Source of the DNA: Lachnospiraceae bacterium
Lineage (GTDB): Bacteria; Bacillota; Clostridia; Lachnospirales; Lachnospiraceae
Assembly (NCBI GenBank): GCA_017622875.1
Contig: JAGAQG010000060.1
Span: 1-40,585, forward strand
DNA: 40,585 nucleotides
Reading direction: 5' to 3'
The position numbers and the translations under genes are program-made. Below are positions 163 to 19,672 of this stretch, in pieces. The notes beneath the pieces are model-generated. The model was not told the DNA's origin. It did no database searches and saw nothing but the letters and a program-made list of their open reading frames with translations. Every line of letters starts with the position of its first letter. Within the stretch, counting starts at the first letter, position 1.

Positions 163-1917
163 ATGAAAAAGATTATTAATTACAAAAACTTAAGTATTGG
201 AAAAAAGTTTACAGTAACATTTTGCTTATGGCTGCTGGTGCCATTGCTGTTAATGTTTTTATGGATCAACAAAAGCGTAACAGATCAGATTGTTGAAGAA
301 AATTGTAAAACCAGATTAGAAATATTAAAACAGACTGAATATGGTATTACAAACATGATTGAGAATGTTACATCAGTAACGTTAGACATCATTGGAGATG
401 GAGAGATTCAAAATTATCTGAAAATATCAGATACTGAGGACGAAGAGGCGGATAACCTGAAAAACGACATTGCATATAACTTGGGAAAAATAACCAGTTT
501 AAAAACTTATCTTTCAAGAATATCCATTTTTACAGAAGAAAAGATTGTGTTTCAAACTGGAAAATATATGGTAGAAGAAAAGGCAATTGAGATTTCTGAT
601 GTTGCGCAGCAAGAAGGTCGTATTGTATGGGATGCTGCTAAAAAGGATGAAAACTACTTATTAAGTCGAGACAGAGATAATTATGAAGTGTCCGCATATC
701 GTGCAATTGTCAGCTATTATGATTTTGAAAATGTTTTGGCATATGAAAGGATTACGATTGATGAGGATTATATCTGCAGCATTTATTCGGGGATTGCAAC
801 AGATACGACAGAACAGTTTTTTATTATAAATAAGCAGGGAGAAATTATTTCCTCCCTAAACAAAGAATTGTTAGGAAAGCCTTATGAGGAAGAAGCAGTT
901 TTAAAAAAGGTTATCCGCAACAAAGAAGGGTACTATATTGACCAGGAGAAGCAGCTTGTGGTCAGTTACTACTGCCTGCCAAAGGTACAATGGTATGTTG
1001 TGAAGATAGACAGACAGGAGGAAATCATTGGTCAGGGACTGCTGAAAACAATTACCCTTGTATGTATGTTTTTATCTATGGCGTTTGCATTGGCCTTTCA
1101 TAACGTACAAAAGAAACGAATTGTAATGCCGATTGTTCATTTGGCCAAGGATGTCAGCAATTTCCACGAAGGAGAGTACAAGATTGGAGTTTATTCCAAT
1201 GCCCAAGATGAAATTGGAGAATTAAACAACAACTTCATTGAGATGGCAAATTATATTCAGGAACTGATTGAACATGTTTACAAGAGTCGTTTGAAAGAAA
1301 AAGAGGCACAGCTGCAGTATTTGCAGTCTCAGATTAATCCGCATTTTCTATATAATACGCTGGATTCTATGCGATGGATGGCAGTGAAAGCAAAACAATA
1401 TGAATTGGCAGAGCAGATAGAAGCGCTGGCAAATCTGTTCCGTCATGCGCTGAATCAGGGAAAACACCTGACTACTGTGGAAAAAGAGATTGCTCATTTG
1501 AAAGATTATCTGACAATTCAGAAGTGTCGATTTGGAGAACGCATTAAGACAACCATTGAAGCAGATGCGCAGGTATTGAAATGTACGGTGTTAAATTTGA
1601 TTCTCCAACCATTGGTAGAAAACGCAATTGTTCATGGTCTGGAAACTAAAATTGAAGGCGGAAACATTCATATCAGAGTAAAAAAAGAGGGAGAAAATCT
1701 TCTGTATATCGTGGAAGATGATGGAGTTGGAACAGAACAGGAAAATATCCGAAGATGCCTGATGGAAAGGACTAACTCCAATAATGCGTTGGCATTGGAC
1801 AACATCAATCAGCGAATTAAGCACCAGTATGGAGAAAAATACGGACTCTTATTTTATAGTAAAATCGGAGCAGGTACAAAAGTAGAGGTAAGAATGCCTT
1901 TAGAATGCGAGGAATAG
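163..1917 (+). CDS. YesM-type sensor histidine kinase
   Basis: Membrane sensor kinase of the LytS/YesM class, 584 aa, which would phosphorylate the response regulator encoded 1 bp downstream. A first membrane segment lies at about residues 17-36, an extracytoplasmic sensor region at about 40-290, a second segment at about 293-312, then a HAMP linker. The His_kinase box QINPHFLYNTLDSMRW places the phospho-acceptor at His394. The HATPase domain shows the N-box LVENAIVHGL and a G-box EDDGVG. ATG 163 is used, with GGAG about 9 bases upstream. An upstream in-frame ATG at 145 with a better ribosome site is cut off by TAA at 157-159, so the N-terminus may once have been six residues longer. YesM kinases usually sense carbohydrate through a binding protein, which matches the ABC genes downstream. 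The frame is intact. Confidence 0.92.
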   Translation: MKKIINYKNLSIGKKFTVTFCLWLLVPLLLMFLWINKSVTDQIVEENCKTRLEILKQTEYGITNMIENVTSVTLDIIGDGEIQNYLKISDTEDEEADNLKNDIAYNLGKITSLKTYLSRISIFTEEKIVFQTGKYMVEEKAIEISDVAQQEGRIVWDAAKKDENYLLSRDRDNYEVSAYRAIVSYYDFENVLAYERITIDEDYICSIYSGIATDTTEQFFIINKQGEIISSLNKELLGKPYEEEAVLKKVIRNKEGYYIDQEKQLVVSYYCLPKVQWYVVKIDRQEEIIGQGLLKTITLVCMFLSMAFALAFHNVQKKRIVMPIVHLAKDVSNFHEGEYKIGVYSNAQDEIGELNNNFIEMANYIQELIEHVYKSRLKEKEAQLQYLQSQINPHFLYNTLDSMRWMAVKAKQYELAEQIEALANLFRHALNQGKHLTTVEKEIAHLKDYLTIQKCRFGERIKTTIEADAQVLKCTVLNLILQPLVENAIVHGLETKIEGGNIHIRVKKEGENLLYIVEDDGVGTEQENIRRCLMERTNSNNALALDNINQRIKHQYGEKYGLLFYSKIGAGTKVEVRMPLECEE

Positions 1918-1918
1918 T

Positions 1919-3487
1919 ATGAAATTATTGATTGTAGATGATGAAATTCAAATTCGGAATGGGTTACAGGAGGGGCTTCCCTGGGATGAAATCGGCTTTG
2001 AAGAAGTCTATACTGCACAAAATGGAATTGAAGCACTGGAAATCTGCAATCAATATAAACCGGAGGTTGTAATTACAGACATTCAGCTTCCCGGGATGAG
2101 TGGTCTGACCCTTGGTAAGAACATTAAAAGCAGCTATGAGCCGGTAGAGGTGATTTTATTAAGCGGCTACTCTGAATTCGAATATGCCAAAGAGGCCATT
2201 GCGATTGGAGTGTTCCGGTATCTCTTAAAACCTATTCGTGTAAGTGAACTGATAGAGTGTGTGAAGGGTGCGCTTGAAAAGATAGAAGAATATGAAAAGG
2301 AAAATCTGGTTAAAGATAAATACTATGCGTTAAACAGAACTCGTATTTTACAACAGATGTTGATGAGCAACCTGCTTCTTAACAATGAAGATGAACAAAT
2401 ATTTCATGAGCAGTTCAGGAATAAGATGTCAAAAGAAATTGCTGTTGGCGTATTTAGCGTAGACGTTTTATTGGATAAGAAATTAGACCGATTTGGTCGT
2501 CTGCTTGAAGCGAACCTGCATTAGATATTGATAAAGAACAATGCCCAGGAACTGTTTTGGGAGCGTGGCAATCTGTTCTTTGTAATGGACGTGTTTTCGA
2601 GACATGACAGAAAAAGAAAACTGAATGCTCTGAAAGGCGAAGTGGAAAGCTTTAATGAATTGTTGAAAGAAGAGTTCCATAACACGATTTCTCTGGCTGT
2701 CAGTGATGTTGGTTCTGTGAAGGAAGCAGCTGTCTTGTTTAGGGAAGCAGAAAATATTTTGAAAAAAAGAATGTATGTTGGTGCGGCTGCTTTTTTAGAG
2801 AAGGAAGATAATGATGATATTCAAAAAATCACATTGAACCCGATTGATGTAAAGGAAGTTGAGGCGCGGATTGAGAGTCTTGACTCTTCTCATGTATGTC
2901 GGTACATCCAAAAGGTATTTCAAGAACTTGAAGAGAAGCAGGTAACTTCTGTTGAATTTGTGAAGAGCGTATGTGAACAACTGAAAAATATATTGCTGCA
3001 GACAATGATGAATAAAGGGATTGATTTGGAAGGAATTTTTGAACATAACCAAGCGCTTTTGAATGAAATTCCGGAATATTTTACATTGAAGGAATATGAG
3101 ACATGGATCGAAAATCTTTATCAGGTAATTTTGCAGGGACTATCGGCTTTAAGCGGAACATCGCATAGCCGCATTATTTTACAGGCTGTTGATTACATTT
3201 CTAAAAATTATGCGGCAGATATTGATCTTGAAATGACCGCAGATTATGTGAATAAGTCGAAAAATTATTTCAGTTATCTTTTTAAAAAAGAAATGGGAGT
3301 TAGTTTTGTGGAATATTTAAATCAGGTCAGAATAGAGGAAGCAAAAAAACTTTTAGAAACAACTGATGAAAAGAGCTATGAAATATCAAAAAGAGTCGGA
3401 TATAGCGACAATAAATACTTTTCGATCGTTTTCAAGAAGTACACAGGTATGTCTCCGGCGCAATATAGAAATATGTTGAAATCGTAA
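1919..3487 (+). pseudogene. YesN-type AraC response regulator, broken by an in-frame TAG
   Basis: Partner of the kinase; the full reading would be 522 residues. The N-terminal receiver domain has the phospho-acceptor Asp54 (VVITDIQLPGMSG) and the conserved Lys in YLLKPI. The C-terminal 100 residues are an AraC-type double HTH (IDLEMTADYVNKSKNYFSYLF, and the end motif YKGMSP-like YTGMSPAQYR). TAG at 2522-2524 (codon 202) lies in the linker between receiver and DNA-binding domain; the same frame stays open from 2525 to the normal end. A CAG (Gln) to TAG change would explain it. As read, the product is a receiver with no DNA-binding domain. TTG at 2528 could in principle restart translation of the C-terminal part, but no good ribosome site is visible there. 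Sequencing error cannot be excluded. Confidence 0.88.
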
Positions 3488-3546
3488 AAATTTAGAAGTT
3501 TTCGTAAAATATTCGGCTATATAAAAAAAGTTTCTATTTTTATAAT
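3480..3546 (+). promoter_or_regulatory. Candidate response-regulator operator and promoter of the binding-protein gene
   Basis: Two TCGT half-sites 20 bp apart (3482-3485 and 3502-3505) lie in a 26-bp stretch (3480-3505) that recurs with one mismatch at 4966-4991. TATAAT follows at 3541-3546, with no good -35 box 17 bp upstream of it, as expected for an activator-dependent promoter. The direct repeat at about two helical turns fits a pair of AraC-type DNA-binding domains. The assignment to the adjacent YesN-type regulator is inference. Confidence 0.6.
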
Positions 3547-3579
3547 GTTAATATCAAATATATCGAAGGGAGATATTCT

Positions 3580-4869
3580 ATGAAAAGAAAATTAATCAGT
3601 GCATTTCTTTTAGCAACTTTGACACTGGGTCTTTTAGCGGGATGTGGACAGAAAGAAGAAGCATCTACAGCAGAAGTTACAACAGAAGAAGCCTCTACAG
3701 AAGAAGCTGCAACAGAAACAACTGGAGAAAAAATTTCAATCAAATTCTATGGCAAATGTGTGGAATACACATCAGGTCCTCTGATGACAGATGCTCTGGA
3801 AGAAAAACTTGCAGATACTTATGACATCGAGTCTATTCAGATTGACTGGGCAAATCAGGACAAAGTAATCCGTACAGGTCTTGCATCCGGCGAACCATGT
3901 GATGTTTATAATTATACTCCAGGTAGTACAATTGCAAACTTTGCAGATATGGCTTTAGACTTAACACCTTATTTTGAAGCTGATCCGGAATGGAAAGCAC
4001 AGTTCAAAAAGTCAGACCTTGCAGCGTGTACAACATCAGATGGAAAGATTGTTAATGTTCCTTGGGAATTAAACTTCTCTGTAATCCTTGCAAACAAAAC
4101 ATTATTAGAAGAAGTAATCGGCGAAATTCCTGAAAGCTGGACATATGTAGAATTTCTTGATGCTTGCCAGAAGATTAAAGATGCTGGTTAATGGCCATTT
4201 GCAAACGGAACAGACAATACTCGTTCTGACTGGGTATTCAGAAATGCAATGCTCTCAGAAGTAGCAACATCTGGTAAAGAAGCAGAATATTTATCAGGCG
4301 AACTTTCATATGACTGCGAAGAAACAAGACGTGCATTAGAAAACGTAAAAACTCTGTATGACAATGAATATATGTATCCAGGTGAAGGTGCAGTTACAGC
4401 AAAAAATGACGAAATTAAGGCAGCATTTTATCAGGGCAAGCTCTTAATGATGCCAGAAATCGCAGCAGGTGCAAAAGTGACAGCTTCTGAAGCTGATTTC
4501 GAAGTTGTAGCAATCCCATGGCCATCTTCAAACACAAAAGCAGCAGTATTAGGTTCCTTTAATGGATTCTTTATTCCATCAAACTGTGCGAACCCAGATG
4601 CAGCTGTAGAAGTATTAAAAGCATTTACAGAAGCTGATATTCAGGGAATCCATGCATCAGAAGGATATATTCCTGCAAACGTAAATGTTGAAGTTGAAGA
4701 TGAGTTTGTTAAATCAGTCGTAGAACAGTCTGCTGCATTAAATACAAATGAACCGTTTACAATTGCTATCAATGATTATAGAGTAAATCAGTTAATGGCT
4801 GACTTGATTCTTAATGGTGGTGTTGAAGTGGCTGTAGAAGGTCTTGAAGCAGCAAGATTAGCTGAATAA
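3580..4869 (+). pseudogene. ABC transporter solute-binding lipoprotein, broken by an in-frame TAA
   Basis: Extracellular sugar-binding protein of the family-1 type; the full reading would be 429 residues. A lipoprotein signal peptide ends in LLAGC with the lipidated Cys at residue 22, followed by a Glu/Thr/Ala-rich linker. TAA at 4189-4191 (codon 204) interrupts the mature protein after QKIKDAG; the same frame continues directly with WPFANG and stays open to 4869. A Tyr codon (TAT or TAC) changed to TAA is the simplest origin. The second half has no start with a ribosome site, so no functional binding protein is expected unless the stop is read through or is an assembly error. It has its own upstream operator-like site and is followed by a strong terminator, a layout usual for highly expressed binding proteins. 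Confidence 0.88.
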
Positions 4870-4911
4870 GAAGGCAGAACTAACAGGTACATATAGTTGC
4901 CTCTAAATGAC

Positions 4912-4955
4912 AGTCTCTGCATACGTAGAAATGCGTATGCAGAGACTATTTTTTT
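4912..4955 (+). terminator. Intrinsic terminator after the binding-protein gene
   Basis: A perfect 14-bp stem (4912-4925 with 4934-4947), an 8-base loop and a following run of T (4949-4955). It separates the binding-protein transcript from the permease transcript, which starts from its own promoter just downstream. Confidence 0.9.
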
Positions 4956-4965
4956 AAAACTGGAA

Positions 4966-5032
4966 AATCGTAATAATTTAGAAGTTTTCGTTTTTTTGTA
5001 GGATTTATTCTATATTCATGCTTTTTTATAAT
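4966..5032 (+). promoter_or_regulatory. Second copy of the candidate operator, with the permease promoter
   Basis: The stretch 4966-4991 matches 3480-3505 in 25 of 26 positions, with TCGT at 4968-4971 and 4988-4991. TATAAT is at 5027-5032. The distance from the last base of the second TCGT to the first base of TATAAT is 36 in both copies, while the 35 bases between are unrelated. The -35 position is again poor. This supports one activator controlling both transcripts. Confidence 0.62.
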
Positions 5033-5062
5033 TAGGCTATAAAGCTTAGGAGGTCAATAAAA

Positions 5063-5950
5063 ATGAAGAGAAAAAAATCTTCAGTTACGATTACAGGTAT
5101 CATTTATTTATTACCTGCATTGATATTTGTAATTGGATTTAACGTAATACCATTTGTATGGAATATGATTTTATCATTACAGAACTGGAATGGATTTTCA
5201 CAGGCAGAGTTTGTAGGCCTGGAAAACTTTAAGGCTGTCCTTGCAGATTCTGCATTTTTGCACTCTTTGTGGAATTCTATTTTGTATGCTGCATGCTCAA
5301 CAGTAGGTGGAGTGCTTCTTGGATTAGTTCTTGCCACATTTATTTACAAATTAGGTGATAAAGAAGGTTCAGTGTTCAGACTGATCTTATATAGCCCGGC
5401 AATGGTGCCGACAGCGGTTGTTGGTTTGATGTTCGTATTCTTCTTTAATCCTGAAATGGGATTGCTTAATAATTTTTTGAAAATCATTGGATTGGAAAGT
5501 CTGCAGCATGTTTGGCTGCAGGATAAAGCAACCGCTATGGCGTGTCTTGTTTTTGTTGCGATCTGGAAATGTGCCGGATCAGTTATGATGATGTGTTTTG
5601 CTTCTATGCAGACACTTCCACCATCTCTTTATGAGTCCGCAAAATTAGATGGTGCTTCCTTCTGGCAGCAAATGTTTCAGATTACTTATCCGCTGATCAA
5701 ACCTATGATTCTTTTGTCTACGATCAATACATTAGGAAGTCAGTATAAGAGCTACGACCTGATTCAGACAATGACACAGGGAGGGCCGGGAAACTTAACC
5801 TCAACTGTTCCGATCATTATGACAAAGACAGCATTTACTTATGGAAAATTTGGACGAGCGGCAGCTCAGGGCGTTATTTTTACAGTTATAGTTGCGATTA
5901 GCATTATTCTTGTAAGACGTGTGTTAAGGAGTGAAGAATATGAGTATTAA
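5063..5950 (+). CDS. Sugar ABC transporter permease (MalF/UgpA type)
   Basis: Inner-membrane subunit of a carbohydrate importer, 295 aa with about six hydrophobic segments. The cytoplasmic EAA loop that contacts the ATPase is seen as ESAKLDGASFWQQMFQITYP. ATG 5063 has a strong AGGAGG site at 5049-5054. The stop overlaps the start of the second permease gene by 11 bases, so the two are translationally coupled. No ATPase gene lies in the locus; in this group such importers commonly share one MsmK-like ATPase. The frame is intact, unlike the binding-protein gene upstream. Confidence 0.93.
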   Translation: MKRKKSSVTITGIIYLLPALIFVIGFNVIPFVWNMILSLQNWNGFSQAEFVGLENFKAVLADSAFLHSLWNSILYAACSTVGGVLLGLVLATFIYKLGDKEGSVFRLILYSPAMVPTAVVGLMFVFFFNPEMGLLNNFLKIIGLESLQHVWLQDKATAMACLVFVAIWKCAGSVMMMCFASMQTLPPSLYESAKLDGASFWQQMFQITYPLIKPMILLSTINTLGSQYKSYDLIQTMTQGGPGNLTSTVPIIMTKTAFTYGKFGRAAAQGVIFTVIVAISIILVRRVLRSEEYEY

Positions 5951-6806
5951 AATATCGGGAAACACATCCGCGGGTGTGAAAAAACATGATTTGAGAGCTC
6001 AGTGGATTATTAGAATCGTATTATTGATATTTGCAATGATTACGATTGTCCCTATGTTGTTTGTTATTTTGACATCTACAAAAACAAATAGTGAGTTTTA
6101 TCAAAATATCTGGCTTTTGCCGGAAAGATTTGCATGGGAAAACTATGAGTATGCATGGAATATTGCAAAAATTGGTGAGTATTTTGGGAACAGTATCATT
6201 ATTGTATTAATTACAGTAGTTCTGACGCTGATATTAGGTGCTTTTGCGGGCTATGCACTGGCAAAATTGAATGTACCTCATGCTGATCTGATTATGCTCC
6301 TGATTTTCCTTCTTACCATGCTGCCATCGGAATCCATCCTGATGCCGACATACATTATGATGGGTAAACTGAAAATTACAGGAACTTTTGCATCAATGAT
6401 CCTGCCTTATACTGGCTGGGGAATGGCACTTACCATTTATATTTATCGAAATTTCTTTAAAACACTTCCAACAGAAATTATTGAAGCTGCAAGAATTGAC
6501 GGATCTTCAGAAACCAGAACCTTCTTTAAGATTATTTTACCAATGATGCTTCCGGCAACCGCGACGAATGCAGTCTTTACCTTCCTTGGATGGTGGGGAG
6601 AAATGCTTTGGGCATCTGTTGAATTATCAACTTCTTCATTAAAAACTTTGCCGCTTGGCATTACTGCATTTGTGCAGAGTTCCGGAACAAACTGGGGACC
6701 ACTTTGTGCAGCAAGCTGTATCATTTTAATTCCGGTAATTATTTTCTTCCTGTTTGCACAGAAATATATGGTGGCAGGATTAACAGGTGGAGCTGTCAAA
6801 GGTTAA
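5940..6806 (+). CDS. Sugar ABC transporter permease (MalG/UgpE type)
   Basis: Second membrane subunit of the importer, 288 aa from ATG 5940. A GTG at 5931 is in frame, but AAGGAG at 5926-5931 is well placed for ATG 5940, so that start is preferred. The EAA loop reads EAARIDGSSETRTFFKIILP, typical of MalG-type subunits, and there are about six membrane segments. The gene overlaps the first permease gene and is 13 bp upstream of the glycoside hydrolase gene, so the three form one operon. Intact. Confidence 0.93.
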   Translation: MSIKISGNTSAGVKKHDLRAQWIIRIVLLIFAMITIVPMLFVILTSTKTNSEFYQNIWLLPERFAWENYEYAWNIAKIGEYFGNSIIIVLITVVLTLILGAFAGYALAKLNVPHADLIMLLIFLLTMLPSESILMPTYIMMGKLKITGTFASMILPYTGWGMALTIYIYRNFFKTLPTEIIEAARIDGSSETRTFFKIILPMMLPATATNAVFTFLGWWGEMLWASVELSTSSLKTLPLGITAFVQSSGTNWGPLCAASCIILIPVIIFFLFAQKYMVAGLTGGAVKG

Positions 6807-6819
6807 TGTGGAGTAGAGA

Positions 6820-9807
6820 ATGACTGACTTTAGAAAAGAATTAAAAAATCCTGCAAATGAATATCGCAGCGCGCCATTCTGGGCATGGAATGGAAAAATG
6901 CAAAAAGAGCGTATCCAAAAACAGATTGCAGACATGAAAGAACAGCACATGGGAGGCTGTTTTGTACATTCCCGTGAAGGGCTGGAAACAGAATATTTAT
7001 CAGAAGAATGGATGGACAGGATAGAGGATGCCATTATTGCTTCTAACCAAAAAGAATTGGATGTTTGGATTTATGATGAGGATAAATGGCCATCCGGTAT
7101 GGCTGGAGGAATGATCACTCGTGATTACCCGGAGTTTCGCGCAAAGGCACTGACCTTACAGATAAATGAGGACGGGACCCATAGCTTTCAGATTGAAACA
7201 ACCGGTGACAGCGAGTGGTACAATGGATATGGTCCTGCCAATAACTTAGAACCGGAATCAGTAAAAAAATTCATCGAAATGACCCATGAAACGTATCGTC
7301 AGAAAATTCCGGCAGTGGCAGAGGGAAAAGTTCGGGGATTCTTTACTGACGAACCGAATGTATGTGACTTTTTCTCCACATTTACAGAAGGCAGACCTTG
7401 GCTTCCATGGTCAGACCATTTTGAAGATGTATTTGAAAAAAACAGAGGATATGACATTAGAGAGCATCTGGAAGAGTTATTCTTTGAGAGCGAAAATGCA
7501 GGGAAAATCCGCCATGATTACTGTAAAACAATTTCCGAAGTATTCAGTGAATGTTATTTTGAACAGATCAGTGAATGGCTGCATAAGAATGATATGCTCT
7601 TTACAGGTCATCTGATTTTTGAAAATGACTTAGGCTATAATTCCAGAACAAGCGGTTCGGTAATGCCTCATTATCGATTTTTTGATATACCAGGCATTGA
7701 TATTTTGGGAGAGCAGGATCAGGAACTGCTGACGGTAAAACAATGCACCAGTGTGGCAAACCAGTTTGGGAAAAAGCATGTAATGTCTGAAACCTATGGC
7801 TGTACCAAATGGGATTTTGGTCTGGAAGGTCAGAAGTGGCTGGCAGACTGGCAGTTTGTTATGGGTGTGACTATGAGATGTCAGCATCTGTTTATGTATT
7901 CCATCAAAGGGCTTCGTAAGCGAGACTATCCGCCGATTTTTAGTGAACAGACCACATGGTGGGAAAAATCACATATCTTAGAAGATTATTTTGCAAGATT
8001 TGCAGTCTGCAGTACCTATGGGAAGGTAAAAAGAGATCTTCTGGTGCTTCATCCACAGTCTACTGCATGGTTATATGCCGGCGGCAGAGCAGATGAAGAT
8101 CTGACAAACTGGGATGATAATATGGGCTGGCTGGATACTCACTTTTTAAAAGGGAACAGCATCGGAACTGAGTTTAGCAGAATGATTCAGAGTCTGCTTA
8201 ATAGCCACAGAGACTGTGATCTCGGAGATGAAATGCTCATGGAAAAATTCGGACGCATCGAGGAAAAGAAACTGTATATTCAGGAGGCAGGCTATAAGAT
8301 GATGTTTGTTCCGCCTGTTGAAAATATCTTTTCATCGACGGTTCGGCTTTTGACTGAATTTCTGGAGAAGGGTGGAAAAGTAATCCTTTCAGGCAAAGTA
8401 CCAGCATATGTGGACGGTGTTTTATCAAATGAGGCAGAAAAACTGTATCAGCATGAACGTGCGGAATGGTACGCAACTGCAAAAGAAGCATTATGCGCGA
8501 TCAAGGCACTTGAAAATGATATAGAAGTTGTAAATGAATACGAAATAGAAGATGCAGATATCATGACGATGTATCGTGAAATTCCGGAAGGTACAATGCT
8601 GATCTGCTGTAATCATGACAGAACAAAAACTCATGAAATCTGTGTTCGCATGAGGGGAAAGGGTGCCATCGAAAGAATTGATCTGGTGACAGGAGATTCT
8701 AAATTTATCCCAACACATTACAATGAACATCTGGAAAAGATGGAATTTATAGAAAAGTTGGGGGCAGTAGAAACAGCAGTTTACATTTTACATAACAATT
8801 TGCCATGGAAAGAAACAGCCCTTTCATTTACCTATACACATCCTCACGCAGCGAAACCGGTTGTGGAAGGATTGAATATTAGAACCGAGATATCAAGAGA
8901 ACTGCCAAACATCCTCCCTCTTGATGTGTGTCGTTATTGTCATGCCGGCGAATGGTCCGAAAAGATGCCGGTATGGCAGGCACAAAGAGAACTTCGTGAA
9001 AAACTTGAAATGCAGGCAAACTGGTATAACGGGGCTCCACAGCGCTATACATGGGTAGATGTACCTCATAAAAATGATGGTGCATGCGTTCAGATGGAAT
9101 TCGAGTTCATGATTGCAGAAACTGGTGTGAAGAATCTGAAAGTGGCGATAGAGGATTTGGAACAGTTTACAATTCTTTGTAATGGAACTGAAATTTATTG
9201 CAAAGGTGATGCACTAACGGGAGAATTTTTCCTTGATCCTGACTTTAAAACTTTTGAAATTCCGGCTGGGGTACTCTCTTTTGGAAAAAACACTCTTACA
9301 ATGCAGATGAATTACGAGCAGTGTATGGAGTTGGAAGATATTTATGTATTAGGCGATTTTGCAGTAAATACAGACCGCGAGCTTGTTAAGGAAGAAGGCA
9401 GCCTGAAAATCGGTGACTGGTGCAGCCAGGGATATCCATATTATGGCGGTGGCATTACCTATCATTTCAAGACAGGAAAAATTGAAACAGACGGAAGAGT
9501 TGGTCTGTTCTTGCAGGAATGGAAAGCTGCAGTTATAAAGGTAAGCGTAAATGGAAAGCTTGCTGGTCATATCGGCTGGAAGGGACAGGATGGATTAGAC
9601 ATTACAGATTATTTACAGGATGTAAACGAAATTGATGTGAAAGTCATTACTACACCGAGAAACATCTTTGGTCCATTCCACCAGAAATATGATTCCTGTG
9701 TCAGAAGCAGTTTTAAGGACTTCCGTACAGAGGGAAAAGACTACACAGAAGAATACTTATTAGAGCCTCAAGGACTATTGAAACCTGTAACATTACAAAA
9801 AATATAG
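6820..9807 (+). CDS. Large glycoside hydrolase, GH106-like (possible alpha-L-rhamnosidase)
   Basis: A 995-aa protein without signal peptide, so probably cytoplasmic. The N-terminal part (RSAPFWAWNGKM, then MGGCFVHSREGLETEYLSEE) resembles the catalytic start of GH106-like enzymes, in which a W-N-G motif is followed by a helix and an MGG segment. Acidic motifs typical of a barrel-type hydrolase follow (FFTDEPNVCDFF, VMSETYGCTKWDFGLEGQKW). Residues beyond about 740 look like beta-sandwich, galactose-binding-type domains. It would remove terminal sugars, perhaps rhamnose, from oligosaccharides brought in by the adjacent importer. The GH106 label rests on motif memory; specificity cannot be read from sequence. 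The frame is intact and co-oriented with the permease genes. Confidence 0.65.
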   Translation: MTDFRKELKNPANEYRSAPFWAWNGKMQKERIQKQIADMKEQHMGGCFVHSREGLETEYLSEEWMDRIEDAIIASNQKELDVWIYDEDKWPSGMAGGMITRDYPEFRAKALTLQINEDGTHSFQIETTGDSEWYNGYGPANNLEPESVKKFIEMTHETYRQKIPAVAEGKVRGFFTDEPNVCDFFSTFTEGRPWLPWSDHFEDVFEKNRGYDIREHLEELFFESENAGKIRHDYCKTISEVFSECYFEQISEWLHKNDMLFTGHLIFENDLGYNSRTSGSVMPHYRFFDIPGIDILGEQDQELLTVKQCTSVANQFGKKHVMSETYGCTKWDFGLEGQKWLADWQFVMGVTMRCQHLFMYSIKGLRKRDYPPIFSEQTTWWEKSHILEDYFARFAVCSTYGKVKRDLLVLHPQSTAWLYAGGRADEDLTNWDDNMGWLDTHFLKGNSIGTEFSRMIQSLLNSHRDCDLGDEMLMEKFGRIEEKKLYIQEAGYKMMFVPPVENIFSSTVRLLTEFLEKGGKVILSGKVPAYVDGVLSNEAEKLYQHERAEWYATAKEALCAIKALENDIEVVNEYEIEDADIMTMYREIPEGTMLICCNHDRTKTHEICVRMRGKGAIERIDLVTGDSKFIPTHYNEHLEKMEFIEKLGAVETAVYILHNNLPWKETALSFTYTHPHAAKPVVEGLNIRTEISRELPNILPLDVCRYCHAGEWSEKMPVWQAQRELREKLEMQANWYNGAPQRYTWVDVPHKNDGACVQMEFEFMIAETGVKNLKVAIEDLEQFTILCNGTEIYCKGDALTGEFFLDPDFKTFEIPAGVLSFGKNTLTMQMNYEQCMELEDIYVLGDFAVNTDRELVKEEGSLKIGDWCSQGYPYYGGGITYHFKTGKIETDGRVGLFLQEWKAAVIKVSVNGKLAGHIGWKGQDGLDITDYLQDVNEIDVKVITTPRNIFGPFHQKYDSCVRSSFKDFRTEGKDYTEEYLLEPQGLLKPVTLQKI

Positions 9808-9851
9808 ATTGAAATTTGTAAGATAAAAGAGAATAAGGTTGATATAAGGCT

Positions 9852-10550
9852 ATGAAAAATGAAAAAATATTGACTTTTAGCTTTGATGATGGAGTGACTC
9901 AGGATATCCGTCTGATTGAATTATTCAATAAATATGGTATGTAGGCCACATTTAATTTAAATTCTCTCCTGCTTGGAAAAAAGGGGGAATTAAATTTTCC
10001 AGGGAAAAAAATAGTGCATAATAAGGTGAAGCGGGAAGATGTCAGGAGTATCTATGAAGGACATGAAGTAGCTGCACATACATTAACACATCCAAATTTG
10101 ACTGAGATTCCAGATAAAAAGGAAATCATTCGACAGGTAGAAGAAGATCGCGTGAAATTAAGTGAATTATGTGGATATGACGTTGTTGGGATGGCATATC
10201 CATGCGGCGGTGTAAACTATAATGCGGTTGTTTCTGAGATAATCAGAAAAGATACAAAAATTCAGTATGCCAGAACAATTGTGTCTAATAGGAATTTTTC
10301 TAGACAGATTAATTTATATGAGTTTAAACCGACCGTTTATTGTTATGAAGAATTTGAGGAAATGTTTCAATTAGGGAAATATTTCCTTAATCTTAAGCCG
10401 GAAAAAACGCAGATTTTTTATGTTTGGGGACATTCTTATGAATTTGATATGAATGATGGTTGGAAACGATTTGAAGAATTTTTAGAAATGATGAGTGGAA
10501 GAACAGATATTTGTTATTGTACAAATCGTGAAGCCTTGCTGGATGTGTGA
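9852..10550 (+). pseudogene. NodB-type polysaccharide deacetylase, broken by an in-frame TAG at codon 31
   Basis: Carbohydrate esterase family 4 fold; the full reading would be 232 residues, with no signal peptide. Motif 1 is seen as LTFSFDDGV (metal-binding Asp-Asp) and motif 2 as HEVAAHTLTHPNL (His-x3-His). TAG at 9942-9944 sits between FNKYGM and ATFNLN; family members usually have Lys or Arg in this KATF/RATF position, so AAG to TAG would explain it. Everything after the stop stays in frame to 10550. A GTG-initiated fragment from within would lack motif 1 and so be inactive. The gene lies between the GH106-like and GH9-like genes and would deacetylate an imported N- or O-acetylated sugar. 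Confidence 0.85.
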
Positions 10551-10574
10551 TGAAAAAGAAGGGGGAGATTCTAT

Positions 10575-12320
10575 TTGTATAAGAGTGACTTTTTGATAAA
10601 TCATGTGGGATTTTTACCGGTTTCAGCGAAACATTTTGTTTATACAGGTAACTGTGAAACATATAAGGTCAATCGCATGCACGATTTGAAGCTGATTCCA
10701 GTTTATAGTGGAAAATTTGAAAAATATGATGATATATATCAAATAGGTGATTTTACCGAAATAACAGAAGAAGGTATTTATCGTATCAGTACGGAAGAAG
10801 GAAACAGCAGATGTTTTATCATCAGTAATGATGTTTACAAAACTCCAGCAAGAGTATTGACGAATTATTTTACATGGCAACGTTGTGCAGATGATTTGGG
10901 ATGAAATGGAAAGTGTCATATTGATGATCAGATTACATTAAAAAATGGCGAAATCAGAGGATTGTCTGGAGGGCATCATCAATCCAGTGATTTGAGAAAA
11001 TGGACATTTGGGACAGCAATCGGAATTGAAGGTCTGGCTGAATATGCGACAGGGAACTGCATTCCATGGGATAAAGGAATTATTGCAGAAGAGTTATGGC
11101 ATAGTGCGAAATATTATTTGTCACTGATTACAGACGAAGGGTGGCTTTTAAATTGTACGTGGGTTCCGGAAGATTACAATACTGAATGTGCAGGGAAAGG
11201 ATATGGAGACTATCAGGCTGCATGGAGAAAAAGGAAATACTTCGAAACTCCAGACAGTGAACATTCTCATTGGCAGGTTATTAAAACCTTAGCTGCTGTT
11301 GCGAAATATTTTAAAGGAATTAATGCCAAGATTTACAAAGCATGCTTAACTGGTGCAGAAAAGGTATGGAATTATATGCAGAATGAGGGAAAAAGCCTGC
11401 ATGGTTATCAGCTTCCTGTTTTTCCTCCATTAGGACATGATGGTATGCCAAAGATGTTTCAAGGATTTTATGAAGGCTCTGCTTTGCGTTATGCGTCATG
11501 TGCGTTAGCTGCATGTAAACTTTTTGAATTGACAGGAAAAGAAGAATACAAAATGACTGCATATGAGATGTTGGATAATTTGTGTGATCTGCAATTAGAG
11601 GGCGAGTCTTTAGATTCTTGTGTGAGAGCCTGCTTCTGGGAAAGTAAAGAATCCAATATTTTAGCAAATAATTATTACTATTTTTATTGTATCAATGTTC
11701 CAATGGCGTTTGCGGATGCGGCGGAATTATGGACTGATGCAAAAAATAGAGATCAATGGTTGGAGTGCATGAAAACTATAGCGGATCAGTATCAGAAACT
11801 TAGTAATAAAAGTCCGTTTGGACGCATTCCATCATCCTTTTATACGGAAAATAATGATGTATTTTCAAAGGCTGCATTATTTAGTTTTAGTATTACTTCA
11901 GATAATGAGAGAAAAAATGCTTCCATTGGTCAGACGCAACATAATGGACAAACTTTTTCTGTATTCAGCGAATATTATAATTTTTGCTATAACCTTGACT
12001 TGATTGCAGCAGGTATTTTTTTGCTTAAAGCAGCAGAACTGACTGGTAATAATAATTATAGAATTACAGCGCAGTCTCAGTTGGATTGGATTATGGGAGC
12101 AAACCCATTTGATGCAAGCAATATTGAAGGGGTAGGATATAATCAGCCTCACAGGGGAATTTTGGGGGGATTTTTTCCGCCGGTTCCGCAAATTCCGGGA
12201 GCGGTATTCACAGGGATTACAAAAGAATGTTTTGAAGAAGCATCGTTAGGTTACGATTGTGAATATGATATGCCAATGGTAGGCTGGTTGTTGTATTTAT
12301 ATTCACAAATCGAGCATTAG
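10575..12320 (+). pseudogene. GH9-like glycoside hydrolase, broken by an in-frame TGA at codon 110
   Basis: Full reading of 581 residues from TTG 10575, which has a GGGGGAG site upstream. An N-terminal immunoglobulin-like domain (about 1-95) precedes an alpha/alpha-barrel of GH9 type: ending motifs DWIMGANPFD and PHRGIL, and CEYDMPMVGWL where GH9 enzymes carry the acid Glu. TGA at 10902-10904 lies between CADDLG and NGKCHIDD; a Trp TGG to TGA change is the simplest origin. The usual DAGD catalytic-base motif appears as QSSD (GGHHQSSDLRKW), keeping the second Asp but not the first. No signal peptide is seen. The stop removes the catalytic domain from the product. Confidence 0.82.
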
Positions 12321-12338
12321 AGTTTTGTGTGAAGGAGG

Positions 12339-13667
12339 ATGCGATTCAGGTGGTTAGAAATGTTAAGAAAATTGTTTTATGAACCTACACCACAGAATGA
12401 AAAAGATTATGCTGACGGAAGACGTCTTTATATTGTGGCAGAAAGTGCCAATGCATTGATTAATGAATTGGCTGGAGGAACATTTCTGGTTGCAGTCTTG
12501 AGTACAATTCAAATAACAGACGGAATGAGCGGATTTATTCGTTCCTGTGGAACAATTGCTATGTTGTTCCAACTTCTGACTATGATTCACGTGCAGAAGA
12601 TGAAAAAAAAGAAACTGTTTATGTTTCTTTGTGCATTGCAAAAAATTTGGTTTGGGATACTTTTTTTCATACCAACTATGAACTGGAAGGTTCAGACAAA
12701 GTGTATTTTAGTAATTTTAATTTATTTTCATGGTCAGATTACAAGTCAGTTGGCAAACCCTGCAAGGATAAATCTGATTGCCGATTTGGTTCCGGAAAAT
12801 ATAAGAGGAACTTATTTTGGAAAGAAAGATTCTATAAGTGTTTTTGTCACCTACGTTACAGTATTTTTTGCAGGAATTTTATTTGATCATACAAATAAGA
12901 ACAATATAAATGCAGGTTTTCAGATTTTTGGAAGCATCCTGATTCTTTTAGCGATTATAGATGCGGTTGCTATTGCGTTTATAAAAGAACCGGAAAACCT
13001 TACCGTTGCGCAAAAAGAAAGAGTTTACTTGTGGAAAGAAATTATAGACGCTTTTAAGCATAAAGGTTTTCAAGAAGCATTGATTTTGAATGGCATTTGG
13101 ACAGCAGCCGTATATTTCACAGTTCCGTTTAATGCCAGTTATCAAATAAAAGAACTGGGGTTGTCTTATACATATATTACCGCAATCGGGTTAGCAACTA
13201 TGTTGCTGCGAGCGTATTTAATGCCCCGGCTTGGAAAAGTAGTAGACAAAATTGGAAATGAAACGATGTTAATACATCTTTTTTCCATCATGGGATTTCA
13301 TTATGTGGTCATGATGTTTACCGTTCCGGAGAATGGTAAAGTATTTTTTGTAATCGCATCACTCTTATCTGCAATTGCACATGGCTTTATTAGTCAAGGA
13401 TTGCTGGGAATTCAGTTGAAAGTTTTGGATGAAAGAAAGAGAACTATACAATACAGTATATTGTCAGCTGCATCGGGAACAATAGGGTTTGCTGTTTCTG
13501 TAGTGGCTGCAAGATTATTAGAAATGTTACAAAGTATGGAACTTGCTGTTGGTACAAGAAAACTTTATGCTCAGCAATTTATGAATCTTTTGGGATTGAT
13601 ATTTATTTTGATAAATATTGGATATTTACTGATGAGAGTCGATAAAGCAAAAACTGGATGTATATGA
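12339..13667 (+). CDS. Major facilitator superfamily transporter
   Basis: A 442-aa membrane protein with about twelve hydrophobic segments and a basic cytoplasmic loop after the second or third (VQKMKKKKLF). A loop segment reads NLIADLVPENIRGTYFGKKDS, which resembles the conserved loop of MFS carriers related to sugar and peptide transporters. AGGAGG touches ATG 12339 directly, so ATG 12360, in frame and just before LRKLFYEPT, is an alternative start although it lies far from the ribosome site. It begins 19 bp after the GH9-like gene and probably belongs to the same transcript. Substrate unknown; intact. Confidence 0.82.
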   Translation: MRFRWLEMLRKLFYEPTPQNEKDYADGRRLYIVAESANALINELAGGTFLVAVLSTIQITDGMSGFIRSCGTIAMLFQLLTMIHVQKMKKKKLFMFLCALQKIWFGILFFIPTMNWKVQTKCILVILIYFHGQITSQLANPARINLIADLVPENIRGTYFGKKDSISVFVTYVTVFFAGILFDHTNKNNINAGFQIFGSILILLAIIDAVAIAFIKEPENLTVAQKERVYLWKEIIDAFKHKGFQEALILNGIWTAAVYFTVPFNASYQIKELGLSYTYITAIGLATMLLRAYLMPRLGKVVDKIGNETMLIHLFSIMGFHYVVMMFTVPENGKVFFVIASLLSAIAHGFISQGLLGIQLKVLDERKRTIQYSILSAASGTIGFAVSVVAARLLEMLQSMELAVGTRKLYAQQFMNLLGLIFILINIGYLLMRVDKAKTGCI

Positions 13668-13924
13668 AAGTACCGATTTGACGACCTGGACACTTATCTT
13701 AAAATCGGACAGCCCTAAAGGAACTTTTATACCTCACAGCAGTTTGCCTCTGACACCTGCTGACTGGGAGTGTCTGGATGGAACCTTATACATTGACTGC
13801 AATGAAGATCCCTATCTGGTCTTTTGTCACAGACGGTCCATTTTTATATCGACTGTCTAATGGACGGCTTGCCATGATATGGTCCAGCTTTTCCAAAGGA
13901 GATTACGTGGAAGCATTTTATTGA
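13660..13924 (+). pseudogene. GH43 glycoside hydrolase remnant made of three conserved blocks
   Basis: About 265 bp remain of a gene that is usually near 1 kb. Block 1 (13660-13683) reads VYESTDLTTW; block 2 (about 13700-13830) reads SDSPKGTFIPHS, DWECLDGTLYID and DPYLVFCH; block 3 (13829-13924, shifted by one base) reads TDGPFLYRL and MIWSSF. In intact GH43 relatives these blocks are separated by roughly 40-50 residues each, so at least two internal deletions are inferred. The first block overlaps the stop of the MFS gene. The 3' end is also missing. This would have been another enzyme of the sugar locus, possibly a xylosidase or arabinofuranosidase. Confidence 0.72.
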
Positions 13925-13943
13925 AAATTTATAAAAAGTTTAT

Positions 13944-14071: not shown

Positions 14072-14921
14072 ATGGAAAATCAAAAAGTTTTATCTTTTAT
14101 GTCAGCTACCGGAAAAATTGACTACAATATGACGAATAATTATATGTTTCGTTATATCCTGCAAAAGAATGAAAAGGTATTAAAAGGCCTGATTTCTTCG
14201 CTGCTGCGGTTAGATCCTGTTATGATAAAGTCCATTGTCATTAAAAATCCAATCAATCTTGCAGGGGATGTAAGTGGGAAAGAGTTTATTTTAGACATCA
14301 ATATTATGCTGAATGATAACACATTGATCAATCTTGAAATGCAGGTAGCGAATGAATCTAACTGGGCGGAACGATCGTTGGCATATTTGTGTCGTGCGTA
14401 TGATCAGCTCTATAAGGGGCAGAAGTATGAGGAGGCACTTCCGGTAATTCACATAGGATTTCTTGATTTTACACTTCATCCCGAACATCCGGAATTTTAC
14501 GCAACTTACCAAATGCTGAATATTAAAAATCACTTACTGTTATAGTAGCAAATTTACACTTTCCGTGGTAAACTTAAATCAAATAGAACTGGCAACGGAG
14601 GAAGATAAAGCCCATCACATTGATTATTGGGCAGCACTCTTTAAAGCTGGAACATGGGAGGACCTTAGGATGTTGACGAAGGATAATGAATATTTACAGG
14701 AAGCAGCAGAATCTCTTTATGTGGCAAATGCGGATGAGATCGTTCGTCAGCAGTGCGTAGCCAGAGAGGATGCGGAGAGAAGAGAGAGAACACTGGAACG
14801 AGATAAAAGGCTGTTACAGCAGGCTTTGGAAGAACAAAACGTTAAAATCAAAGAACAGACAAAGGAAATTGAAAGGCTAAGAGCAATGCTTGCTCAGAAT
14901 GGAATCGAGTTAAAAAAGTAA
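14072..14921 (+). pseudogene. Rpn-family nuclease (PDDEXK type), frameshifted
   Basis: Member of the Rpn / PDDEXK_2 transposase-associated nuclease family. The N-terminal half (14072-14545) contains the start YNMTNNYMFRYIL and the nuclease core EFILDINIMLNDNTLINLEMQ, with Asp and the ExQ residues. After NIKNHLL the frame meets TAG TAG at 14543-14548. Shifting by one base restores the usual continuation (YSSKFTLSVVNLNQIEL) to a C-terminal coiled coil rich in Glu, Arg and Lys that ends at 14921. One extra T at 14540-14541 explains the break. The gene has its own promoter and AGAGG ribosome site. Rpn proteins are abundant in this family of bacteria and often found at mobile sites. Confidence 0.85.
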
Positions 14922-15063: not shown

Positions 15064-15411
15064 ATGAAGAAATTTGCACAGCGGTTAAAAGAATTACGAG
15101 AATATTATGATATGACACAGGCGGAAGTAGCGGCAGCTTTAAACTTCTCATCCGCTGCAATCAGCAATTATGAATGCGGAGCACGAGAGCCGGGAATTGA
15201 AGAACTAATATTGCTGGCAGATTTCTTTCATGTTTCAATGGACTATCTTGTTGGGAGAATTGATTATTCGATCCAACGCGGAAAAAAGAAAATAATTCGC
15301 TATGCGGTTACAGAGAGCATGAAAGTTCCGGCATCATTGAACGAGAAAGAACTTGATATGATTGTTCACATTATTGCCAATGGGAAGAAATATTCTTGGT
15401 ATGAAGTATGA
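15064..15411 (+). CDS. XRE-family transcriptional regulator
   Basis: A 115-aa DNA-binding protein. Residues 6-61 form a Cro/C1-type HTH (RLKELREYYDMTQAEVAAAL, then SSAAISNYECGAREPGIEEL), followed by LADFFHVSMDYLVGR, the usual end of such domains. The C-terminal 45 residues (LNEKELDMIVHIIANGKKYSW) are a short helical tail. ATG 15064 is used; the upstream ribosome site is weak. It stands alone between copy A of the hairpin repeat and a stretch of palindromes and transposase debris, so no partner or target can be assigned. Intact. Confidence 0.88.
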   Translation: MKKFAQRLKELREYYDMTQAEVAAALNFSSAAISNYECGAREPGIEELILLADFFHVSMDYLVGRIDYSIQRGKKKIIRYAVTESMKVPASLNEKELDMIVHIIANGKKYSWYEV

Positions 15412-16950: not shown

Positions 16951-16984
16951 TGACGCTTACGAACATTTTTATAATTTCTTTAGT

Positions 16985-17007
16985 GTAAGCGCCTTATAAT
17001 CCGGCGG
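16985..17007. repeat. IS66 inverted repeat, tnpC end
   Basis: Starts GTAAGCGCCTTATAATCC and continues GGCGG. It pairs with the repeat at 19644-19666. Confidence 0.88.
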
Positions 17008-17064
17008 TATATATAATTATCCTCGCATCCGCAGCAATTATCGCGAGGATGCGAGAAGTTTACT

Positions 17065-18696
17065 CTAGTTATTATTGCAAAGTGATCTCACTTCGCTGCT
17101 CCATGGAGCAAGTTTTTCAAGCTGTTCATCAGACCATGCGTTGGATGGTCTGTGTTCCAACAGTAAATTCAAATATTTATAAATGTTAAGGTCATGTGCT
17201 TTTGCCATTTCTACCATGCTGTAGACAGTGGCACTGGCTTTGGCTCCTTCTGGTGATTCGCTGAACAGCCAGTTTTTGCGACCGACGGTAAATGGTCGGA
17301 TAGCATTTTCACTCAAGTTGTTGGAAAAACTACAGCGACCATCTTCCAGATAAGTTTCCAATGTATCACGGCGATTTTTGATGTAGGTAATCGCTTTATC
17401 CATACGTGAATTCTTAATCGGATTTTGTAATTCAAGCCACGACCAAAAAGCCTCCAGGATTGGGTTTTCCTTTTGGAGACGAAGCGTTTTTCGATCTTCA
17501 TATGAGACGTGTTTCTTGTTGATCCAGTCTTCATACTCAAAGAGTTTGTTGCAATACTGTACACCTTGAACTGCCGGATTGCTATAATCGTATTGCCTGC
17601 CTTTCGGTACAGCATCTATCAGGTACCTTCTGACATGAGCCCAACATGAGCATCGCTTAATGTCAGGAACCTTGTTATAGCCTTAATATCCATCGCATTC
17701 CAGATAGCCTTTAAAACCTTTCAGAAATGTTTTGGCATTATCTCTGGCTCTGGTTTCAGAGTAGCCATAAAGGATTATCACGGGTTCTCCATCCTCTCCT
17801 GTGCGGTAAAGCCACATGTAGGATTTAGACTGCGGGCGACGACCTGGCTCATCTAATACTTGCGTTGTTGTTTCGTCTGCCATTAAAAACTCTCTTTCCA
17901 GAAGTTTTCGATGGAAGAATTCATACATCGGTTCAAAGTAGTGTGATGCACAATAGATAATCCAGTTGGCAAGTGTGGAACGGCTTAGGTCAATGCCATA
18001 CTGTTTCCAGTCTTTTTCCTGCCTGTAAAGTGGAATACTGTTTGCATACTTCTGATACATTGTCCATGCTACAGAAGATGGGGAAGCAAGACTGTGCTTC
18101 ATCAATGGTTTGTATTCTGTTGTAGCTTTTATGATGTATGGCTCATCTGTTTCTTTACATTCAGGACAGCCATAATGTAAACTGATATACTTTTTGACCT
18201 TGACCTGCGCAGGGATATATTCAATTTCATGACGGATTGTTTCCCTGCCGATTGGTTCCAACTCAGTTCCGCATTGAGGGCATATTTTATCTTCAGCAGG
18301 TACATCAATAATGACTTCTTCAACAGGAATTCCTTTTAGTTTTTCTGCTAAAGTAGTCTTTGCCTTACGTGTATGAGATTTTACGGTGGTTTCGATATCC
18401 GGAACAGATGATTCTTCATTCTGGCAGCATTCTGCTTCATTGAAAAGATTCAATTGCCCTTCGATATCATCTGTTCTTCGTTCACTGGAGCTTCCGAACA
18501 GTTTCTTTGTCAAGAAGTCAATCTGTTCTTTTAATACTGCATTCTGTTTTGCCTGTTCAGCTTCACGTTCTTTTGCTGCATTTAATGTTTCCTGCAGTGA
18601 AACTATGAGCTGTGTTTGTGCGGCTATTGTAGTATTAAGTTGTGAGATGGTATCTTTCAGTTCACGGAACTGGATATCTTTTGTATCTCTGACCAC
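17065..18696 (-). pseudogene. tnpC: IS66 TnpC transposase, broken by an in-frame TAA at codon 338
   Basis: DDE-type transposase of IS66; the full reading would be 543 residues from ATG 18696. An N-terminal coiled coil (TISQLNTTIAAQTQLIVSLQ) leads to a zinc-ribbon-like segment (CPQCGTEL, then CPECK) and the catalytic domain, with the first Asp in MADETTTQVLDE and the second near YLECDGY. TAA at 17685-17683 directly follows ECDGY; the frame then continues GYNKVPDIKRCSCWAHVRR, the usual next segment, through NLSENAIRPFTVGRKNWLFS (catalytic Glu) to 17065. A CAA (Gln) to TAA change explains it. The product lacks the last catalytic residue and should be inactive. Confidence 0.9.
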
Positions 18697-18780
18697 TGTT
18701 TTTCTCCTTAAATCTGGTGCTTTTATTATACCAGATTTGAGGCATATATTAAACCAAAAGACGTGAAAAACCTTGTAAAA

Positions 18781-19122
18781 TCAAGGGTTCCCAATGGCTT
18801 TGGGCTGCTCGATATCGAGCCCTGACATCAGCCAGTCGAACTGCTTCCAAGTCAAAGGACGTACTTCTGATTGATTACGCGGCCACTGGTATCGGCCTTC
18901 GACAGCAAGCTTTTTATATAAAAGTACGAAGCCGTCACTTTCCCATAGCAAGGCTTTGATTCGATCATTTCTTCTTCCGCAGAAGAGATAAAGTGCACTC
19001 CGCCGGGGATCCATGTGCAGCTCATTCTCCACAAGCGCACAAAGACCATCTATGGACTTACGCATATCGGTGTATCCACAAACGATATAGATTTCATCAA
19101 CGAGAGAAATATCACCTAGCAT
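18781..19122 (-). CDS. tnpB: IS66 accessory protein TnpB
   Basis: A 113-aa protein with the family signature VCGYTDMRKSIDGLCALVE, then LYLFCGRRNDRIKALLWESDGFVLLYKKL. TnpB (IS66 Orf2) is needed with TnpA and TnpC for transposition, but its biochemical role is not settled. It overlaps the end of tnpA by 7 bp, the usual coupled arrangement, and is 84 bp upstream of tnpC. Full length and intact. Confidence 0.93.
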   Translation of the reverse strand: MLGDISLVDEIYIVCGYTDMRKSIDGLCALVENELHMDPRRSALYLFCGRRNDRIKALLWESDGFVLLYKKLAVEGRYQWPRNQSEVRPLTWKQFDWLMSGLDIEQPKAIGNP

Positions 19123-19526
19123 GGCACACCTCGAAGAAAACGTAGCACGGATACCAGAAGTTCCGGATTAACATCCTTTGGGATTTCAAGTTTTGCACCA
19201 TTTAATTCTAATTTTAAAGTAGAACTACTTTCTGATTTCGGTAATGGAAATCTTTGTGTCGGAACCGATTCAACAAATGACGTATCTGGTATTAAATCCA
19301 CTTTCACTACATCCTGATGTGGCAATGGCAGGAATTCTTCCTTGCCTGCTGGATCTGGGATTTCACAGCCTTTCTTACGAAGTCTTGATACCCAGTTATA
19401 AAATGTACTGGCTTGAATCCCATTTTCTTCACACCAGCGAGCATCAGACAAACCACTTTGACGACATTCCATAACAAGCCGGTATTGTTCTGCTGGGGAT
19501 GTACGCGGTCTACGCATAAATAGCAA
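19116..19526 (-). CDS. tnpA: IS66 protein TnpA (HTH, IS3-Orf1-like)
   Basis: A 136-aa protein whose first 55 residues form a transposase-type HTH (SPAEQYRLVMECRQSGLSDA, then WCEENGIQASTFYNWVSRLR), with a less conserved C-terminal half. In IS66 it is the first gene and probably binds the element's ends. It starts at ATG 19526, about 140 bp inside the inverted repeat, on the minus strand. Intact. Confidence 0.9.
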   Translation of the reverse strand: MLFMRRPRTSPAEQYRLVMECRQSGLSDARWCEENGIQASTFYNWVSRLRKKGCEIPDPAGKEEFLPLPHQDVVKVDLIPDTSFVESVPTQRFPLPKSESSSTLKLELNGAKLEIPKDVNPELLVSVLRFLRGVPC

Positions 19527-19643
19527 CCTCCATAATAAAGTGTAGTAAAATGCTCACTAATTCACATCCTGTCAATACGAAACTGGAGTGAAGTTTTCGC
19601 ATCCTCGCTATTTATTATGGAAAATTTTTGAATTTTGCACAAG

Positions 19644-19666
19644 CCGCTGGATTATAAGGCGCTTAC
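19644..19666. repeat. IS66 inverted repeat, tnpA end
   Basis: Reads CCGCTGGATTATAAGGCGCTTAC, the complement of the repeat at 16985-17007 with one mismatch. The unrecognised long gene begins within a few bases outside it. Confidence 0.88.
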
Positions 19667-19672
19667 TCTAAA

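Follow-up and report, generated by a model that had tools for sequence, protein, structure and literature searches.

Single in-frame stops in four of nine adjacent glycan-uptake genes of a Lachnospiraceae draft genome: a probable case of recent operon decay

Results

A glycan-uptake cluster with one stop in each of four genes

Four of nine adjacent, co-oriented genes in the genome of a Lachnospiraceae bacterium were found to carry an inactivating in-frame stop codon, one in each gene, which is the pattern of a pseudogene cluster. These genes probably form an operon that serves ABC uptake and glycan breakdown under two-component control, and of which the selective value has recently been lost in this lineage (we put the probability of this reading at about 0.64). 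The window, i.e., the whole stretch of DNA analyzed, consists of one entire contig of 40,585 bases belonging to a draft genome of 2.74 Mb (69 contigs, 87.7% complete).

Based on the open reading frames and their Pfam matches, the nine genes span positions 163-13,667 and are all located on the plus strand. The first one encodes a sensor histidine kinase (163..1917) with His_kinase and HATPase_c domains, which shows 34% identity over 576 aligned positions to its counterpart on L096, a contig of another genome of the same family (G181). It is followed by a response regulator with an AraC-type DNA-binding domain (1919..3487), an extracellular solute-binding protein (SBP_bac_1, 3580..4869) and two ABC permeases (BPD_transp_1, 5063..5950 and 5931..6806) showing 49 and 54% identity, respectively, to those on L096. 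The enzymes encoded downstream are a GH106-like (alpha-L-rhamnosidase-like) protein (6820..9807, Glyco_hydro_106 at residues 195-408), a polysaccharide deacetylase-like protein (9855..10550, Polysacc_deac_1) and a GH9-like protein (10575..12320, Glyco_hydro_9), and the series ends with an MFS transporter (12339..13667, MFS_1). The GC content is low in the deacetylase gene (0.336) and in the MFS gene (0.347).

The four stops noted in the first-pass annotation all proved to be in frame at the positions given there: TAG at 2522-2524 in the regulator, TAA at 4189-4191 in the binding protein, TAG at 9942-9944 in the deacetylase and TGA at 10902-10904 in the GH9-like gene. The same annotation held that the interrupted genes were otherwise recognizable and that the other five were open, and this was confirmed: when the genes are read with an X at the stop, Pfam matches flank or cross each stop, and the frames of the kinase, the two permeases, the GH106-like enzyme and the MFS transporter are free of stops. 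The stop in the regulator is codon 202 of 522 and falls between the receiver domain (Response_reg, 4-115) and the DNA-binding domain (HTH_18, 441-518), while the others lie inside the domain matched: codon 204 of 429 in the binding protein (SBP_bac_1, 82-355), codon 30 of 231 in the deacetylase (Polysacc_deac_1, 2-124) and codon 110 of 581 in the GH9-like enzyme (Glyco_hydro_9, 89-526). The deacetylase, which also shows a weak PdaC match, has its FDDG motif 5' of the stop and its His motif 3' of it. No frameshift was detected in any of the nine genes, all four lesions being nonsense changes. That three different stop codons are used is to be expected of random single-base changes, and calls for no further explanation.

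Can the interrupted genes still be expressed?

It is very unlikely that the interrupted genes still work by read-through, by restarting past the stop or in the form of split proteins. Read-through of in-frame stops has been argued to be common across prokaryotes (PMC7918605). In the regulator, the second codon past the stop is a TTG (2528), which makes a separate DNA-binding half conceivable, and the genome carries a tRNA-Sec gene along with a probable selenocysteine codon in a formate dehydrogenase gene. However, three kinds of suppression would be needed for a cluster with three different stops, and no suppressor tRNA other than tRNA-Sec was detected in the 734 kb scanned, which amount to about 27% of the genome. 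If translation restarted past the stop, the deacetylase would be devoid of the FDDG motif and the binding protein of its signal peptide.

Recoding or suppression of stop codons was rejected, given that three stop codons occur in four genes and that internal stops are rare elsewhere: no single stop was found to be reassigned across genes along with a matching tRNA, the only candidate in the 27% of the genome scanned being tRNA-Sec. Nor is selenocysteine favored at the TGA at 10902, since a standard amino acid is aligned with this site in the GH9-like homologue on L096 and the 61 nucleotides starting at the TGA fold no better than shuffled sequences (z = -0.72), although this test does not discriminate, the formate dehydrogenase gene used for comparison giving z = -0.54. 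The latter gene (L157, minus strand) has an in-frame TGA at 11682 with molybdopterin domains on either side, at what we take from the motif to be a selenocysteine site. This codon and the tRNA-Sec gene (L066, 17622-17719) indicate that the lineage probably makes selenoproteins.

Uninterrupted relatives of the cluster

A partly syntenic cluster free of internal stops is present on L096, where the binding protein comes first, followed by the kinase, the regulator, the two permeases and the GH9-like gene; it has the same core gene set as the two-component-regulated ABC importer studied here. The binding protein on L096 is uninterrupted (41% identity), as is the GH9-like homologue (48% identity by search and 46% by tblastn), which extends past the end of the contig. 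The L096 regulator is only 281 amino acids long and does not extend over the position of the stop, about which it is uninformative. The GH106-like, deacetylase and MFS genes had no match within 20 kb on this contig.

Lesion-free homologues thus exist on L096 and elsewhere for the binding protein and the GH9-like gene. None of the 13 other binding-protein matches has an internal stop, and this count is the fair test, because the sense residue which all 13 homologues show at the aligned site comes from frames chosen to be stop-free. Internal stops were likewise absent from the 10 other GH106-like matches and from the one other GH9-like match. The GH106-like protein has 27 related loci, and its highest-identity matches (about 43%) are in Clostridia, e.g., Clostridium citroniae and Faecalicatena orotica. 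For the deacetylase, the loci compared contained no homologue. At the DNA level, 4.1 kb of the cluster compared with 41 genomes gave matches of at most 140 bases outside its own genome, and patterns with N at the stop for two cluster sites (other than those of the regulator and the deacetylase) and for the IS66 transposase gene described below gave no matches in viral_contigs.

Internal stops in the rest of the genome

Among the protein families of the cluster, one of the 15 SBP_bac_1 matches in the genome carries a stop, namely the cluster binding protein itself, as compared with none of the 35 BPD_transp_1 matches and none of the 31 HTH_18 matches, the latter count being blind to the stop in the cluster regulator, which falls outside that domain. 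The background was assessed on 39 further usable stretches (734 kb, 644 coding segments, about 27% of the genome) with a filter retaining stops with coding signal on both sides and no start plus ribosome-binding site nearby. This yielded 24 rows, which were judged by eye (7 on longer translations and 17 on a 31-residue strip) and gave about two convincing nonsense genes, both of them probable: a MerR-type regulator (L062, near 16437, minus strand) and a protein without any Pfam match (L163, near 1185). A third row was the probable selenocysteine codon of the formate dehydrogenase gene on L157. A further candidate in a stricter survey covering the window and 20 stretches (L061, 8295) was judged to be a gene start.

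Applied to the cluster, the same filter recovered three of the four stops, the one in the deacetylase being lost, and it passed over the stop in the IS66 transposase; it also kept one ordinary gene boundary in the window (38492), which was excluded from the count. The filter gives a lower bound, since 80 rows with a nearby start were dropped (six of them in the window, including the deacetylase), and lesions with a nearby start and ribosome-binding site would be missed in the sample as well. Stops within the gene were seen in three of the nine cluster genes versus about two of the 644 sampled segments (Fisher P = 2e-5). With the frequency found in the sample, 13.5 kb would be expected to contain 0.037 such genes, and the Poisson probability of at least three is 8e-6; correcting for the 203 tiles of cluster size in the genome raises it to about 0.002, or to 0.013 if the background is taken to be 4 instead of 2. 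The clustering of the lesions in comparison with the genome background is strong, although the count is approximate.

Surroundings of the cluster and the state of the assembly

The DNA adjoining the cluster between 13.6 and 20 kb is also worn. It includes a probable relic of a GH43-type gene (13666..13932, plus strand; Glyco_hydro_43 fragment, E = 3.5e-5, under the curated cut-off), which is perhaps what is left of another enzyme gene belonging to the cluster, and an Rpn-type PD-(D/E)XK nuclease/transposase gene (14072..14921, plus strand) frameshifted near 14545. The latter gene has a T_den_put_tspse match, and its first part matches PDDEXK_2; no Pfam match was obtained with the second part by itself. 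Beside this mobile debris lies an RstR-like phage-type repressor gene (15064-15411; 59.9 bits as against a curated cut-off of 80). An IS66-type element follows at 16979..19672 on the minus strand (transpos_IS66, E = 6e-114, with inverted end matches), present as a single copy in the assembly. Its transposase gene (17065-18696) has one internal stop, TAA at 17683-17685, which is unremarkable because 7 of the 29 IS66 matches elsewhere, in a search of 200 genomes of the family, carry one or more stops; for this reason, and because there is only one copy in the assembly, the element was dropped as an internal yardstick. The IS66 region gave no match with plasmids, and the region from 13.5 to 21.3 kb matched three phage records at 67-78% identity. 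At the edge of the element begins an open frame of 427 amino acids (19676-20959) without any Pfam or NCBIfam match, perhaps a gene that lost its 5' end to the IS66 insertion.

These neighbors have a bearing on the idea that an older, foreign cluster was already broken before it arrived next to mobile elements, which the adjoining IS66, Rpn and phage-type repressor genes and the low GC of the deacetylase and MFS genes might suggest. However, with a single lesion per gene and no frameshift the decay looks young, and the regulator, the binding protein and the GH9-like gene score as coding around their stops in a model trained on the genome itself, window included; we regard this origin as the least credible of those considered.

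From 21.3 to 40.4 kb, all 15 genes tested are open and have Pfam matches: ParE, ParC, RimP, NusA, an L7Ae-family protein, IF-2, RbfA, a DHH protein, TruB, RibF, two transporters, an amidohydrolase, an aminotransferase and an NlpC/P60 protein; the comparison of length with relatives covered ParC only. The search with ParC (23248-25479) gave one match in its own genome, as compared with at least two in 15 of the 18 other genomes of the family, and the gene for GyrA may be among those absent from the draft.

The first-pass annotation had also proposed a mixed or erroneous assembly. The stops might indeed be errors in the consensus or reflect a mixture of strains in this part of the contig, with substitution-type miscalls where depth was low or sites were polymorphic, and the draft state of the assembly, in 69 contigs and 87.7% complete, would favor this, as would the fact that the four lesions are all substitution-type stops in a set of nine genes without any frameshift. 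If indels are assumed to make up 10% of mutations, about two frameshifts are expected per nonsense change, and four nonsense changes out of four have a P of about 0.013; with assumed shares of 5 and 2%, P becomes about 0.07 and 0.29. The all-nonsense pattern therefore leans toward substitution-only error or strain mixture. No ratio of nonsense changes to frameshifts to set beside the four out of four was found in the parts consulted of four studies (PMC7918605, PMC11078800, PMC3218036, PMC3542869).

Two features of the contig speak against such an error: the 15 genes tested in its second half are all open, and none of the five single-stop genes, the IS66 transposase included, lies beyond the first 21.2 kb (P of about 0.04 by position). 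So does the finding by eye of only about two such genes in the 734 kb sampled elsewhere. The private changes of ParC, i.e., changes at otherwise invariant alignment columns, are also ordinary (6 in 250 invariant columns, as compared with 2-16 in 12 others), although this test has little power. Given the 734-kb sample and the housekeeping genes, which are open, miscalling throughout the genome is unlikely, and error along the whole contig is less likely as well; a local error or mixture at the cluster is a genuine though rather unlikely alternative to decay.

Discussion

Relaxed selection as the probable course

If, as we infer, the stops are present in the DNA of the cell and the nine genes form one operon, a first inactivating mutation in one of them would have made the rest useless, and single-base nonsense mutations would then have piled up in the regulator, the binding protein, the deacetylase and the GH9-like enzyme, the uptake trait presumably being lost. 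The suggestion that sensing, capture and two enzymatic steps were lost at once was not borne out, a first lesion followed by the others being the simpler course. The proposal that selection was recently relaxed fared better: it agrees with the clustering of the lesions, with there being only one per gene, with the partly syntenic cluster free of stops in another genome and with a neighborhood that is worn while the housekeeping genes next to it are open, but the private changes gave no independent sign of it.

Since 2,116 of the 39,294 possible single-base changes give a stop, four nonsense changes correspond to about 0.57% neutral change (95% range 0.15-1.5%), from which it follows that the decay would be young. 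The numbers of private changes were 2 in the binding protein (0-3 in 13 others), 1 in the GH106-like protein (at most 4 in 30 others), 0 in permease 1, 4 in permease 2 (0-14 in 5 others) and 5 in the regulator (0-16 in 4 others). They thus appear not to be clearly raised in the cluster, which would be in keeping with youth and provides no independent proof of relaxed selection.

We give scarcely any credence to the idea that the cluster is kept silent but recoverable, each gene being one mutation away from function and off and on forms alternating in the population, the one point in its favor being the absence of indels. Decay by relaxed selection would, if reads confirm the stops, provide a young example of the loss of a glycan niche operon by operon, caught before deletions, and automatic annotation could then credit the genome with an uptake system which probably does not work. 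No general idea is changed by the decay of this cluster.

Comparison with known systems

With glycoside hydrolases next to its kinase, AraC-type regulator, binding protein and pair of permeases, the cluster resembles an ABC oligosaccharide importer with its two-component system, which we liken to YesMN; the present cluster differs in that its regulator and binding protein are interrupted. As regards the mode of decay, the nearest parallel is with Shigella, where, according to one study, decayed genes concentrate in operons and genes for carbon use and transport are prone to decay (PMC3218036). As in the present cluster, several carbon-use and transport genes of the decayed operons described there are inactivated while others are open, and operon decay is explained in that study by relaxed selection after a first hit, raised Ka/Ks values being significant in one strain only (PMC3218036). 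The Shigella lesions scored there, by comparison with close reference genomes, include frameshifts, nonsense changes, truncations and indels, whereas here only nonsense changes occur, in a single draft genome. This kind of gene decay is already known and ordinary, and the present cluster is a further example of it.
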